This document shows positions 53,648 through 64,000 of a DNA stretch of 64,000 nt, piece by piece. The notes under the pieces were generated by a model. The model was not told where the DNA came from and ran no database searches. It saw nothing but the letters and a program-made list of their open reading frames with translations. Each line of letters opens with the position of its first letter. The stretch's first letter is position 1. Source of the stretch: Anaerocolumna cellulosilytica (lineage in GTDB: Bacteria; Bacillota; Clostridia; Lachnospirales; Lachnospiraceae). The DNA lies in the NCBI RefSeq assembly GCF_014218335.1, contig NZ_AP023367.1, positions 3,411,501 through 3,475,500 of the forward strand, in the 5' to 3' direction. The translations under genes and the position numbers were made by a program.

Positions 53648-55150
53648 TTATTGATTTTTTAACACTTCCATTGCTGCAGCGTTGGCTGTATTCGCTTTCT
53701 CCGTCAAATCCGGCGCCAGATCATGCGCATTTACACCATTATTAAGTACCGCATCCTCAGCACCTGCATATCCTTCTGCTATAAAGGTACCAAAGCCAGG
53801 TATTATAGTACCTCCATATGGAATTGGTTCTTTACATTTTTCTAAGAATGCATCAAAGTACGGTCCTCTGCCATAAGAATCATCTGCTCCTGGGAAAAAT
53901 TCTCTTACCTTTTCCCACACAGTAGAACTTAAAGTTATAGGAAGAGCATCCATGGACAATTTTGTTCCGTCTGCATTGGTCAGTGTGTTGTAAGCATCAA
54001 TCTTTGCCAACCATCCTTCTTCATTCCAGTTCATGAATTTTAATAATTCATAGGCTTCTCTCGGATGCTCCGTTGCCGAAGATATTCCGCCAAAATCAAG
54101 TGTTCCCATTGAGTGGCTGCTTGAGGTTCCTTTGGCTCTTGGTACGTTATAAGGTACATAGACAAGACCAAGATCTAAGTATTCTTTAGTTGCAAATAAA
54201 TTGTTAAACGTCCACCAGGCATCAAACTGATACGCAATTTTACCGGAATACGCTGCCCACATGGTTCTGTCACCAAAAGCAGCTTCTGCTTCATCTGTGT
54301 CATATCCCGGCGCATGATATTTACCATTTACCAACTCTGCTTGAATATTAATACCCTCTGCCCAGTTCGTCATATCGAATTTTGTACCATCCCAGCCGAA
54401 TTCTCCCCATACATTATCATCCGAAGCAACTGGATACCAGGTTACCATGGTTCTATACTGGTTAAAGCCATAGATGCCCTGTTCTGGCACTGTCATCTTC
54501 TTAATAGAATTCACCAAATCTTCCCAGGTCCAATCGGTAGAAGGCATCTCTACATTTAACTGATCGAATACTGTTTTATTCGCAAATACTACTTCCGGGT
54601 AAAACTTAACAGGTGTTGCCCATTTTTTATCGGTACCGTAATAACCAAATTTTCCTTCTGAGATTGTTGTTAATACATTATCTGCTTCCAAATCATTTTC
54701 CCAATATTCTGTCATATCACCTAAAAGTTGGTTATTAATTGCAAAATCACATTCTCCTAAAATCCAGAAGGCATCCGGCATTTGTCCTGTAGCAACTAAG
54801 TTTAATAAAGAATCATTATATCCGTCAAGGGCAAGGGTAACTACTTCAACCTTAATATTAGGATACTTTTTCATAAACTGCTCGGCCAAGTGTTTTGTCA
54901 GAACTTCATTCTCCCAGGAGCAGTACGTTAATGTAATCTCTTCGGTAGTCATCGGTGGTAAAACTTTTTCAGTGCTGGCTGCTTCACCGTCTTCTCCTTC
55001 TAGAATTTCCTTTTCCCCATTATCAGTACTTACCGTCTCGCTTCCAGGATCTGATTCGTTAGCACCTCCGGAACTGCTGCATGCTGACAGTGCGGCAATG
55101 CACATTGCAAGCACAAGAATAAGACTTAATACCTTTTTCATGTTTTTCAT
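53648..55150 (-). CDS. Sugar ABC transporter substrate-binding lipoprotein (second set)
   Basis: This is an extracellular family 1 type sugar-binding lipoprotein that delivers an oligosaccharide or sugar to the permeases encoded upstream. A lipoprotein signal with lipobox LSAC ends at about residue 24, followed by a Gly/Ser/Glu-rich linker. The body has typical motifs (EEITLTYCSWENEVLTKHLA and later GFNQYRTMVTWYPVASD). Length is 500 residues. The ATG at 55148-55150 is chosen for GGAGG upstream. It is the last gene of the operon and is preceded by repeat-element copy 2. Confidence 0.92.
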   Translation of the reverse strand: MKNMKKVLSLILVLAMCIAALSACSSSGGANESDPGSETVSTDNGEKEILEGEDGEAASTEKVLPPMTTEEITLTYCSWENEVLTKHLAEQFMKKYPNIKVEVVTLALDGYNDSLLNLVATGQMPDAFWILGECDFAINNQLLGDMTEYWENDLEADNVLTTISEGKFGYYGTDKKWATPVKFYPEVVFANKTVFDQLNVEMPSTDWTWEDLVNSIKKMTVPEQGIYGFNQYRTMVTWYPVASDDNVWGEFGWDGTKFDMTNWAEGINIQAELVNGKYHAPGYDTDEAEAAFGDRTMWAAYSGKIAYQFDAWWTFNNLFATKEYLDLGLVYVPYNVPRAKGTSSSHSMGTLDFGGISSATEHPREAYELLKFMNWNEEGWLAKIDAYNTLTNADGTKLSMDALPITLSSTVWEKVREFFPGADDSYGRGPYFDAFLEKCKEPIPYGGTIIPGFGTFIAEGYAGAEDAVLNNGVNAHDLAPDLTEKANTANAAAMEVLKNQ

Positions 55151-55186
55151 TGAAAACATCCTCCTTTTTCCCATTCATTATTTAGT

Positions 55187-55319
55187 CAATTACGAAACAG
55201 TCATTTTATGTGATGGAAGTAGTCAATATCACCAAAAACAGGTTCCGATTATTTACAAGTCACCTTTATGTTGGTGCTTTCGCCTACTTCCTTGTTCTAA
55301 ACAAAAAGTTTCACAATTG
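55187..55319. repeat. MITE-like 133-bp element, copy 2 (between permease and binding protein)
   Basis: Ends are CAATTACGAAAC (55187-55198) and GTTTCACAATTG (55308-55319), inverted repeats with two mismatches. The reverse complement aligns along its whole length with 35970-36100. It contains a weaker internal dyad (TCACCAAAAAC... and ...GTTGGTGC). It lies in the untranslated spacer of the operon and is in the opposite orientation relative to transcription compared with copy 1. Confidence 0.82.
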
Positions 55320-55375
55320 CCTACTACATTATTTCGTTTTTCCTTATATTAGAATAGAAGCCTGTGTGTGCTTCA

Positions 55376-56377
55376 TTATTCTCCTGTAATCCCCGTACGG
55401 TCGATGCTTTCCACAAAATACTTTTGTAAAAAACCATACATTAACAACAAGGGCAAGATACTTAACATGGTACCGGCCATTTTTATAGATTCATTAATAT
55501 TCCCCAATTGCTGCTGGTTTCCCTGATTGTACTGCTCATATATATTTTCAAAATTTTTAAGTTCCACAACCAGTGAGGTCCAGGCATTGGCACTTCCGGT
55601 TCCTTTTCCTGCTATAAATAAGGTTGTTAAATAGGATTCATTCCAATACCAGACAATGGAGAATAAAAATACGACCAGAATTGCCGGTGTGGCAGAAGGC
55701 AGGGATATCTTGAAAAAGGATTTAAAATACCCCGCACCATCAATATGAGCAGCTTCAATCAAGGCCTGTGGTACCTGCTTAAAGAACTGATAGAATATTA
55801 ATATAAATATCTGTGCCTTTACACCTTGCCCCAGTAATGCCGGAAGATTAAATGCATGCAGTGTACCAATAAGCTTTAAATTCGTAAACAATACATAGGT
55901 AGGCATCATAGTTACCTGAGCCGGCAGTATAAAAGAAAACAACAGGATTGCCAGCATAATTTTTTTGCCTCGGAATTCAAATCTGGCAAAACCATAACCT
56001 ATCACTGCACAAGTTCCCACCTGTATCAAGGTTGGGAGACCTGCGAGGATGATACTGTCTTTTAAAGACTTCCAAAAATTCATTACTTTAAAAGCATTTT
56101 TATAATTGCCAATATAAAAGTTAGAAGGAATCCACTTTATGGAAGCATCCAAAAGATCATCTAAGGACATTAGACTGGTGCTAATCATATACATAAGCGG
56201 ATAGAGGTACACAAAGCCAATCCCAATCAACAAGACATACTTAATCAGTGTCGGTACGGCTCCCTGTCTGTCTTTAGAACCAAGGAAAACCTTTCTGAAT
56301 TTGTCTTTATTAAATGTGGGAGGTATAAAATTTACTTTATCATTGCTTTTCATTTTCATTGCATCTAATGTATTCAA
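55376..56377 (-). CDS. Sugar ABC permease, MalG type (second set)
   Basis: This is a MalG/CUT1-type inner membrane permease of about six helices. The EAA loop that docks the ATPase is EAAHIDGAGYFKSFFKISLP. Length is 333 residues. The start is a TTG (56375-56377) after GGGAGG, overlapping the stop of the partner permease by four bases, so the two subunits are translated together. No ATPase gene is present in the operon, so an MsiK-like shared ATPase is implied. Confidence 0.93.
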   Translation of the reverse strand: MNTLDAMKMKSNDKVNFIPPTFNKDKFRKVFLGSKDRQGAVPTLIKYVLLIGIGFVYLYPLMYMISTSLMSLDDLLDASIKWIPSNFYIGNYKNAFKVMNFWKSLKDSIILAGLPTLIQVGTCAVIGYGFARFEFRGKKIMLAILLFSFILPAQVTMMPTYVLFTNLKLIGTLHAFNLPALLGQGVKAQIFILIFYQFFKQVPQALIEAAHIDGAGYFKSFFKISLPSATPAILVVFLFSIVWYWNESYLTTLFIAGKGTGSANAWTSLVVELKNFENIYEQYNQGNQQQLGNINESIKMAGTMLSILPLLLMYGFLQKYFVESIDRTGITGE

Positions 56378-62683: not shown

Positions 62684-63592
62684 CTAATCTTCTGTAAACA
62701 GTCGTTTGGAAACCGTTGAAAACACATATACAATTCCTAAGAGTACAACGGAAACCGCCGCAGCATACCCCATTTCATAACGGATAAATCCGTAATCTTC
62801 GATATGATTCACTATTAACTGCCCCGCATAGCCAGGCGTTGGGTTTGCCCCTGACAGCTGTACACCTATGGCTCCGTTTTGGAATGCCCCAACAATTGTC
62901 ATGACTGCCGCGAACAGCATCTGGGGTTTCATGGTTGGAATGGTTATATATATCATTTCCTGAAAACGGTTCTTTACACCATCAATCGCTGCTGCTTCAT
63001 ACAAGCTTTCATCTGAATTAAGTATCCCGGCAAGGATGGCTAAAAATCCAACCCCCATACTACTCCATAATCCTATTATGATTATAATAGGGAGGAGGAA
63101 TCTGGTATCGACAAGCCATCGAATTGGTTCCGTTATAATGCCAGCCTGAATCAGCCAGGCATTTATGTAACCGGTCTGATCTCCGCTAAAGAGTATCTTC
63201 CATAGAGCTGTCATAGCAACACCTGATGTTATTGACGGAGAATATAAAATCAATGCCAATATCGTTCTTGGTGCCGGTGAAATCTGTGCCAGTGCCCAAG
63301 CCAGTAAAAAGGACAGGGCATAACCACCAGGTCCGACTATCAATGCATAGGTTACAGTATTGGGTAATACATACTGCATAAAGATTTCGTCTTTGGTTAG
63401 AAGGGTAACATAATTCATAAATCCGACAAAACTTGGCTTTTCTATGGTATTAAAGTTTGTAAAAGATAATCCGATGGCTATGGCTATAGGAACAATAATA
63501 AATATTATAAACAATATCAGGTAAGGACCCAAAAATACATAAGCCTGCTTGTTACCATATTCTTTTCTGGCAATCTTATTTCTTTTTTTCAT
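62684..63592 (-). CDS. Sugar ABC permease, MalF type (first set)
   Basis: This is a 302-residue CUT1-type permease with a short basic N-terminus, about six helices and an EAA loop [25 protein letters not shown] segment. It is the first permease after the binding protein gene, from which a 182-base spacer with a large stem-loop separates it. The ribosome site is weak, so its start could be a few codons different. Confidence 0.92.
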
Positions 63593-63693
63593 CTGCTAAC
63601 CATTCTTGCCTTTCTATGATTCTATCTAATCTGCCCTGGCAGCTTCAACCAAGGCATGCTTGCTCTCATCACACTCTTGCGCCTTTTAACACC

Positions 63694-63751
63694 ATACCTT
63701 TCTATTTTGATGACCGGTTATAAAACTGAACCATCTTAAATAGAAAGGTAT
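63694..63751 (-). promoter_or_regulatory. Stem-loop between binding-protein and permease genes
   Basis: A perfect 14-bp inverted repeat, 63694-63707 with 63738-63751, encloses a 30-base loop with an inner GGTT/AACC pair. There is no T-run after it on the minus strand, so it does not look like a full terminator. Such structures after binding-protein genes stabilise the upstream mRNA and lower permease expression in other operons. Confidence 0.7.
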
Positions 63752-63774
63752 CTGCACATTTTGAGCAAACGCTA

Positions 63775-64000
63775 CTACTCCCCATTTAATATCTGTCTGA
63801 CCGTTTTAAGATCCGGCACCAGATATTCCTTTATTTCTCTGCCATCGGCAGACAGGTAGCCGAATTCCATCAGTTTTCTTTCTGTTTCACGATTAATCCT
63901 CTTCACTGCGGAGTCAATGGTAATTCTTAAGTCTTTTCCATCAACCACCACTTTGTTATAAGAGTTACTTAATTCTCTTTCCAACATATAGGTACCAAGG
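63775..64000 (-). CDS. Sugar ABC transporter substrate-binding protein, C-terminal part (first set)
   Basis: The visible 74 residues are the end of a long frame that enters from beyond the window. The pattern RITIDSAVKRINRETERKLM with EFGYL is the C-terminal helix pattern of family 1 sugar-binding proteins, and the gene sits directly upstream of two permeases. The signal peptide and most of the protein lie outside. An internal ATG at 63985 should not be taken as the start. Confidence 0.8.
   Translation of the reverse strand, partial: LGTYMLERELSNSYNKVVVDGKDLRITIDSAVKRINRETERKLMEFGYLSADGREIKEYLVPDLKTVRQILNGE

Follow-up and report, generated by a model that had tools for sequence, protein, structure and literature searches.

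What does an operon do that encodes two sugar importers and, between their permease genes, two surface proteins of uncharacterised families? Such an operon lies in a stretch of 64,000 nucleotides from the genome of Anaerocolumna cellulosilytica (NZ_AP023367.1, positions 3,411,501 to 3,475,500; hereafter the window), which consists of one contig of 5.43 Mb. The original prediction described a single machine composed of a membrane-anchored propeller, a membrane-anchored glycosidase-like protein (DUF5696) and two importers, and proposed that it captures and partly degrades a complex glycan at the cell surface, or senses one. We read the operon, with a probability of roughly 0.58, as an oligosaccharide-uptake cassette in which two CUT1-type importers are combined with an obligate accessory module. 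The operon is genuine and, wherever we tested it, strictly conserved, and it had already come into view as part of xylan uptake in Caldicellulosiruptor bescii; what is new is the obligate accessory module, its breadth, and the doubt about the label 'GH129' given to its glycosidase-like member.

Gene order and co-occurrence

All predicted genes were present in the predicted order on the minus strand of the window, as judged from the list of open reading frames (ORFs) and from Pfam matches (SBP_bac_1, four BPD_transp_1, NHL, Yip1, and DUF5696). From 63592 down to 53648 the order is MalF, MalG, an NHL-Yip1 fusion, DUF5696, a second MalF, a second MalG, and a binding protein (hereafter F, G, NHL-Yip1, DUF5696, f or MalF2, g or MalG2, and S). 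They are preceded by the gene of a 984-residue binding protein, B, the full length of which was fetched from the genome (L005:13276-16230; Table 1). The predicted junctions were also recovered, given starts with a ribosome-binding-like site: NHL-Yip1 and DUF5696 overlap by 8 bases (TTG at 59692), DUF5696 and MalF2 are separated by 1 base (ATG at 57360), and MalF2 and MalG2 overlap by 4 bases (TTG at 56377), while longer ORF versions of these genes lead to larger overlaps. The ATG start of G at 62667 is preceded by AGGAGG, and an alternative longer ORF to 62733 is possible.

We compared this arrangement with a phylum sample of 398 genomes and with 61 relatives. DUF5696 matched in 49 of the 398 genomes, strongly in 38 (at least 481 bits) and only weakly in 11 (at most 26.5 bits); at most three places were scored per genome, and absences are weaker than presences. 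All 57 strong places listed outside the host were fetched and, together with the four of the host, 37 named loci, and 20 of the 33 strong non-host places in the relatives, gave 118 loci. For gene labels we used profiles that started from the four host cassettes and were extended in two rounds on the fetched loci, and the nearest labelled gene on the same strand within 600 bases was taken as the next one. In every phylum-sample locus with enough flanking DNA (three per side had no room), NHL/Yip1 was next upstream of DUF5696, MalF2 was next downstream, and MalG2 came after MalF2 (54/54 each). Chance grouping is ruled out by this identity of the labelled neighbours on each side. B-F-G lay upstream in 29 of the 44 testable phylum-sample loci. 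Reduction of 117 long DUF5696 sequences to 100 non-redundant ones gave 93/93 for NHL/Yip1, 97/97 for MalF2, 95/95 for MalG2, and 61/79 for B-F-G; S was downstream in 49 of the 100 loci, and NHL and Yip1 were fused in 54. The sole downstream exception among the named loci was L093, in which the DUF5696 gene is split into two frames. The four DUF5696 loci of the host each carry B, F, G, NHL, Yip1, DUF5696, f, and g in one order, three of them with S, and NHL and Yip1 are fused in the window cassette and separate in the other three.

The genes also occur together. DUF5696 (more than 60 bits), NHL, and B were found in the same 14 of the 61 relatives, five further relatives having weak DUF5696 matches only. 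The numbers of matches to the three were equal in 12 of these 14 genomes (4 in the host, G000, and 5, 3, 4, and 4 in G004, G009, G012, and G014); they were unequal only in G003 and G030, both many-contig assemblies. In the phylum sample, searched with the same settings and with two candidates scored per genome, B-type proteins (more than 550 bits) were present in 41 of 398 genomes, including all 38 with strong DUF5696 (Fisher p 6e-50, kinship ignored), and in another six genomes the binding-protein matches were all shorter. Frequent occurrence of the two central genes without sugar permeases, which would make a single machine unlikely, was not what we found: NHL and DUF5696 share the same relatives, and MalF2 adjoins DUF5696 everywhere testable except in L093.

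Pairwise distances among NHL, DUF5696, MalF2, MalG2, and S correlated at 0.89-0.93, and those of MalF and MalG correlated at 0.77-0.81 with DUF5696, MalF2, and MalG2 and at 0.81-0.85 with NHL. B correlated with all others at 0.86-0.90 and Yip1 at 0.82-0.87. These values, which shared ancestry alone also raises, hint that F-G and NHL-DUF5696-f-g may form sub-units bridged by B.

The xylan degradation locus of C. bescii

The original prediction knew of no function for such a set, which does not hold for the complete set, because a homologue forms part of the C. bescii xylan degradation locus (XDL), Athe_0174-Athe_0185 (PMC8579813; here, as for the other papers cited, we draw on the available part of the text). 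The operon reads xloEFG-X-GH129-axoFGE-xynF-xynE-xynD-xyn10A-xynX-xynB, belongs to the XynR and AraR regulons, and is up on xylan and Avicel; its proximal genes belong to the set with changes of about 10- to 100-fold on xylan (PMC8579813). In the available part of that paper, X and GH129 are named only in a table, and among the literature matches listed, the NHL, Yip1, and DUF5696 genes of the cassette appear only in this operon table. A literature search for the term DUF5696 returned no papers. Deletion of msmK, the shared ATPase gene, caused a severe growth defect of C. bescii on cellobiose, cellulose, xylan, and pectin (PMC8579813), and XDL transporter genes of C. saccharolyticus are reported to be up on some biomass (PMC5658599).

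The gene order B-F-G-NHL/Yip1-DUF5696-f-g-S is that of the C. bescii XDL. We searched 160 loci for exact matches to the 20-base XDL operator, as given in the available part of PMC12285236, and found it only in L121, L122, and L123. The published XynR operator lies in L122 150 bases before B, the first gene of a cassette of the same kind; after this cassette comes a GH43 protein that contains two GH43 stretches. From the operator in these three loci and the cassette order, B-F-G corresponds to XloEFG, NHL-Yip1 to X, DUF5696 to 'GH129', and f-g-S to AxoFGE, the single names being matched by gene order. Judged by gene order, the window cassette is of the same kind as the XDL, and a common regulon is not implied: it differs in its divergent ArsR-type regulator and its upstream GH43 gene with a GH43_C domain, and the XynR operator was absent from L005, the window region, in an exact 20-base search with no mismatches allowed. 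The proposal of a glycan as the substrate gains support from the xylan-induced C. bescii homologue (PMC8579813) and from the glycosidase genes that neighbour the cassettes.

DUF5696 and the GH129 fold

The predicted model of the window DUF5696 has a GH129 fold over residues 106-791 (numbered on the 791-residue ORF starting at 59737), and the DUF5696 profile matched NagBb-type GH129 with 98.5% probability. The fold is common to the glycosidases NagBb (5WZN and related entries) and ZgGH129 (5OPQ and 8RZK), from which DUF5696 differs in its unconserved catalytic positions, its N-terminal membrane anchor, and the permease genes that always adjoin it where testable. Pfam assigned the window protein only to PF18952 (E 1e-3), and two NagBb-type sequences (P0001 and P0002) also fell below the PF11308 cut-off. 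Neither Glyco_hydro_129 nor NagBb-type GH129 gave a match in 249 genomes; the former search likewise found none in its 14 controls and is thus uninformative. Two NagBb-type GH129 proteins (L031:868-2751 and L032:772-2691) score above the DUF5696 cut-off and below that of Glyco_hydro_129, and because they pass the former, the DUF5696 model reaches into GH129.

Could DUF5696 be a working cell-surface glycosidase, belonging to GH129 or to a sister family, and trim oligosaccharides where they enter the importer? The fold, the profile match, and the label 'GH129' chosen by the C. bescii annotators (PMC8579813, available part) all speak for such an enzyme. In NagBb, we take D435, at the end of strand 4, to be the catalytic Asp and E478 to be the acid/base Glu. 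No Asp or Glu occurs between residues 579 and 598 of the window protein, where strand 4 of the model covers 580-584, so that a counterpart of D435 appears to be missing, with the exact register uncertain; E625 is aligned with E478 by hhalign. Among the 100 non-redundant DUF5696 sequences, 39 have an acidic residue at the nucleophile-like column, 52 have one at the acid/base-like column, and 2 have one at the column of NagBb D322 (the Asp in 'LDGW', counted on the printed alignment), whereas column 688 was acidic in 96. By a loose test, the DUF5696 protein of L122, a C. bescii-type locus, has neither catalytic acid.

Some of these results count against a non-catalytic DUF5696. The acid/base-position E625 is kept in the window copy; 29 of the 100 sequences carry, as judged by the loose test, an acid near both catalytic positions, and some of these could be enzymes; and the nucleophile placed by hhalign is about five residues off the strand-based assignment, which makes the mapping uncertain. 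In addition, the DUF5696-profile alignments to GH129 structures end before the nucleophile, and a phmmer alignment of P0002 with ZgGH129 appears shifted near D486 (a label taken from D486N in the PDB title). We consider that the window DUF5696 is probably not a hydrolase and that the glycosidase reading is rather unlikely. The predicted partial degradation is not borne out for this copy, which appears to have no nucleophile-like carboxylate, and other members of the family may be active. In the uptake cassette as we read it, DUF5696 would sit on the outer side of the membrane, held by its anchor, and bind glycan at the mouth of MalF2-MalG2 without cutting it.

Importers, scaffold, and substrate

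Each importer of the uptake cassette comprises a solute-binding protein and two BPD_transp_1 permeases, as in CUT1 importers. EAA loops, which couple permeases to the ATPase, were found in 67/67 F, 65/66 G, 86/98 f, and 89/96 g proteins, with the core only in 7 more g proteins, and in f and g of the window. These counts come from a relaxed pattern with loosened spacing and hydrophobic positions; the first pattern was wrong and found no match in any permease set, and the second matched 1/67 F, 64/66 G, 42/98 f, and 76/96 g. The cassette includes no ATPase gene, and the host genome encodes one OB_MalK protein, unlinked to the cassette; this one MsmX/MsmK-type ATPase would energise both importers. 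These features are shared with known CUT1 importers that use a common MsmX/MsmK ATPase, whereas the pair of importers and the obligate NHL, Yip1, and DUF5696 module set the window cassette apart. The C-terminal part of B is a solute-binding domain (SBP_bac_8/SBP_bac_1 at residues 571-866), and a profile of five B proteins weakly matched the carbohydrate-active proteins 5x7g (E 5e-6), 2w47 (1.4e-3), and 2w1w (1.5e-3) in its N-terminal modules. The domains matched are presumably of the CBM35 type, and the modules are probably like carbohydrate-binding modules. B would capture glycan fragments, probably through these modules, and feed MalF-MalG, and S would feed MalF2-MalG2.

The NHL-Yip1 protein has an NHL-type propeller fold and matches the Yip1 family (PF04893) with 37.5 bits against a cut-off of 28.6. 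In Bacillus, the Yip1-family protein YknW modulates assembly of the ABC transporter YknXYZ (PMC4887032), and the NHL-Yip1 protein might similarly be a membrane scaffold that assembles the station. The likeness lies in a Yip1-family membrane protein accompanying an ABC transporter; YknWXYZ differs in that it is MacB-like, works in efflux, and includes a membrane-fusion protein, and the available parts of the reports describe no NHL or DUF5696 partner (PMC4887032, PMC4338810).

A simpler account would be two ordinary sugar importers in one operon, with NHL, Yip1, and DUF5696 as dispensable surface decoration. The permeases and binding proteins do fit ordinary families, and B-F-G is sometimes not upstream; however, the module genes accompany MalF2 and MalG2 in every testable phylum-sample locus, NHL, DUF5696, and B share the same relatives, and B is present in all 38 phylum-sample DUF5696 genomes. 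Given this conserved order and co-occurrence, we rejected the ordinary dual operon as the principal explanation and regard it as quite improbable. More improbable still is a glycan sensor whose second permease pair controls induction instead of importing: an extracellular propeller and a glycosidase-fold receptor could plausibly serve as sensor parts, cassettes of the window subtype come with a divergent ArsR-type regulator, and 12 of 98 MalF2 fit neither EAA pattern, but the EAA loops are kept in most MalF2 and MalG2, for which reason we rejected a sensor without transport, and domain scans (Pfam) gave no signalling domain in the cassette proteins, leaving the predicted sensing unsupported.

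The uptake cassette itself has evidence to answer. In 15 of the 44 testable phylum-sample loci, no B-F-G lies upstream, although a unit with two importers is well supported by order, co-occurrence, and copy number. B occurs without DUF5696 in three genomes, one a partial match, and scoring at most three (DUF5696) or two (B) candidates per genome weakens the absences. DUF5696 outnumbers B in expanded genomes (G120, G192, and G220 have 11, 10, and 8 DUF5696 matches, and each has 4 of B); distances of S correlate with those of MalF (0.88) and MalG (0.87) almost as highly as with the second pair; the 12 deviating MalF2 bear on transport; the induction data come from other species; and a physical complex is what we infer from genomic evidence. 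On that evidence, a single machine is favoured. Five genomes of 2.2-3.0 Mb (G120, G192, G220, G099, and G139) show strong expansion, with 8 to 22 DUF5696 and 4 to 11 B matches, some of these matches being pieces of one gene.

A bolder form of the uptake cassette is possible but tentative: NHL-Yip1, DUF5696, and both permease pairs might be parts of a single assembly in the membrane. An inactive receptor with a glycosidase fold would then build, together with the propeller, an outer vestibule from which long glycans pass to the two importers. Such an assembly would be a single-membrane counterpart of the SusCD capture systems, and some lineages could run several receptor modules on a smaller number of B-F-G importers.

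We scanned 85 of 195 neighbouring proteins of at least 350 residues. Among the best 25 of 89 families, the commonest glycosidases were GH43 (8), GH3 (5), GH106 (4), GH2 (4), and GH10 (3), with GH26, GH30, GH32, GH8, and apiosidase at 2 each; because these neighbours are so varied, the cassette looks like a general device. The window cassette adjoins a GH43 with GH43_C and the divergent ArsR-type regulator. Relatives of this GH43 were found among the 118 loci only near L069, L071, L073, and L074, and relatives of the regulator near seven window-subtype cassettes (L067, L068, L070, L073, L074, L150, and L151). Arabinan-type oligosaccharides as the substrate of the window copy are a guess that we hold with slightly less than even confidence. 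The regulator, a winged-helix protein divergent from B (L005:16522-17463, window-equivalent 67021-67962), has a long C-terminal part with no Pfam match at E 0.05. One sister cassette (L007:14526-18126) adjoins GH43-CBM6 and GH127, and another (L008:13086-17630) adjoins GH30 and, by eye, a GH35-like protein, which suggests that sister cassettes serve different arabinose- or galactose-rich glycans. Convergent with the window cassette is a GntR regulator with a TrkA_C domain (52790-53464, plus strand), which we take to resemble the c-di-AMP-responsive BusR and which had no homologue among the ORFs of the other loci searched. A 347-residue protein (50435-51478, minus strand) had no Pfam match at E 1e-5.

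Table 1. Genes of the cassette, with positions in the window
Feature	Position	Strand	Remark
B, giant binding protein, 3' end	63775..64000	-	full gene 63775-66729, 984 residues, extends beyond the window
F, MalF-type permease of the first importer, XloF-like	62684..63592	-	BPD_transp_1
G, MalG-type permease of the first importer, XloG-like	61789..62667	-	BPD_transp_1
NHL-Yip1: NHL propeller, helical repeats, membrane helix, and Yip1 membrane domain, fused	59685..61751	-	X of the C. bescii operon
DUF5696, N-terminally anchored protein of predicted GH129 fold	57362..59692	-	probably not a hydrolase
f (MalF2), permease of the second importer, AxoF-like	56374..57360	-	BPD_transp_1
g (MalG2), permease of the second importer, AxoG-like	55376..56377	-	BPD_transp_1
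S, second solute-binding protein, AxoE-like	53648..55174	-	SBP_bac_1, E 2e-15

Taken this way, NHL, Yip1, and DUF5696, formerly unexplained, become strictly conserved components of loci for plant-glycan uptake in the Bacillota, and the 'GH129' label in C. bescii is called into question. A direct test is feasible in C. bescii, in which, according to the available part of PMC8579813, genes can be deleted and the homologous operon is xylan-induced. If the module is indeed a non-catalytic receptor assembly, it would represent an unrecognised route for the uptake of complex glycans in single-membrane bacteria.

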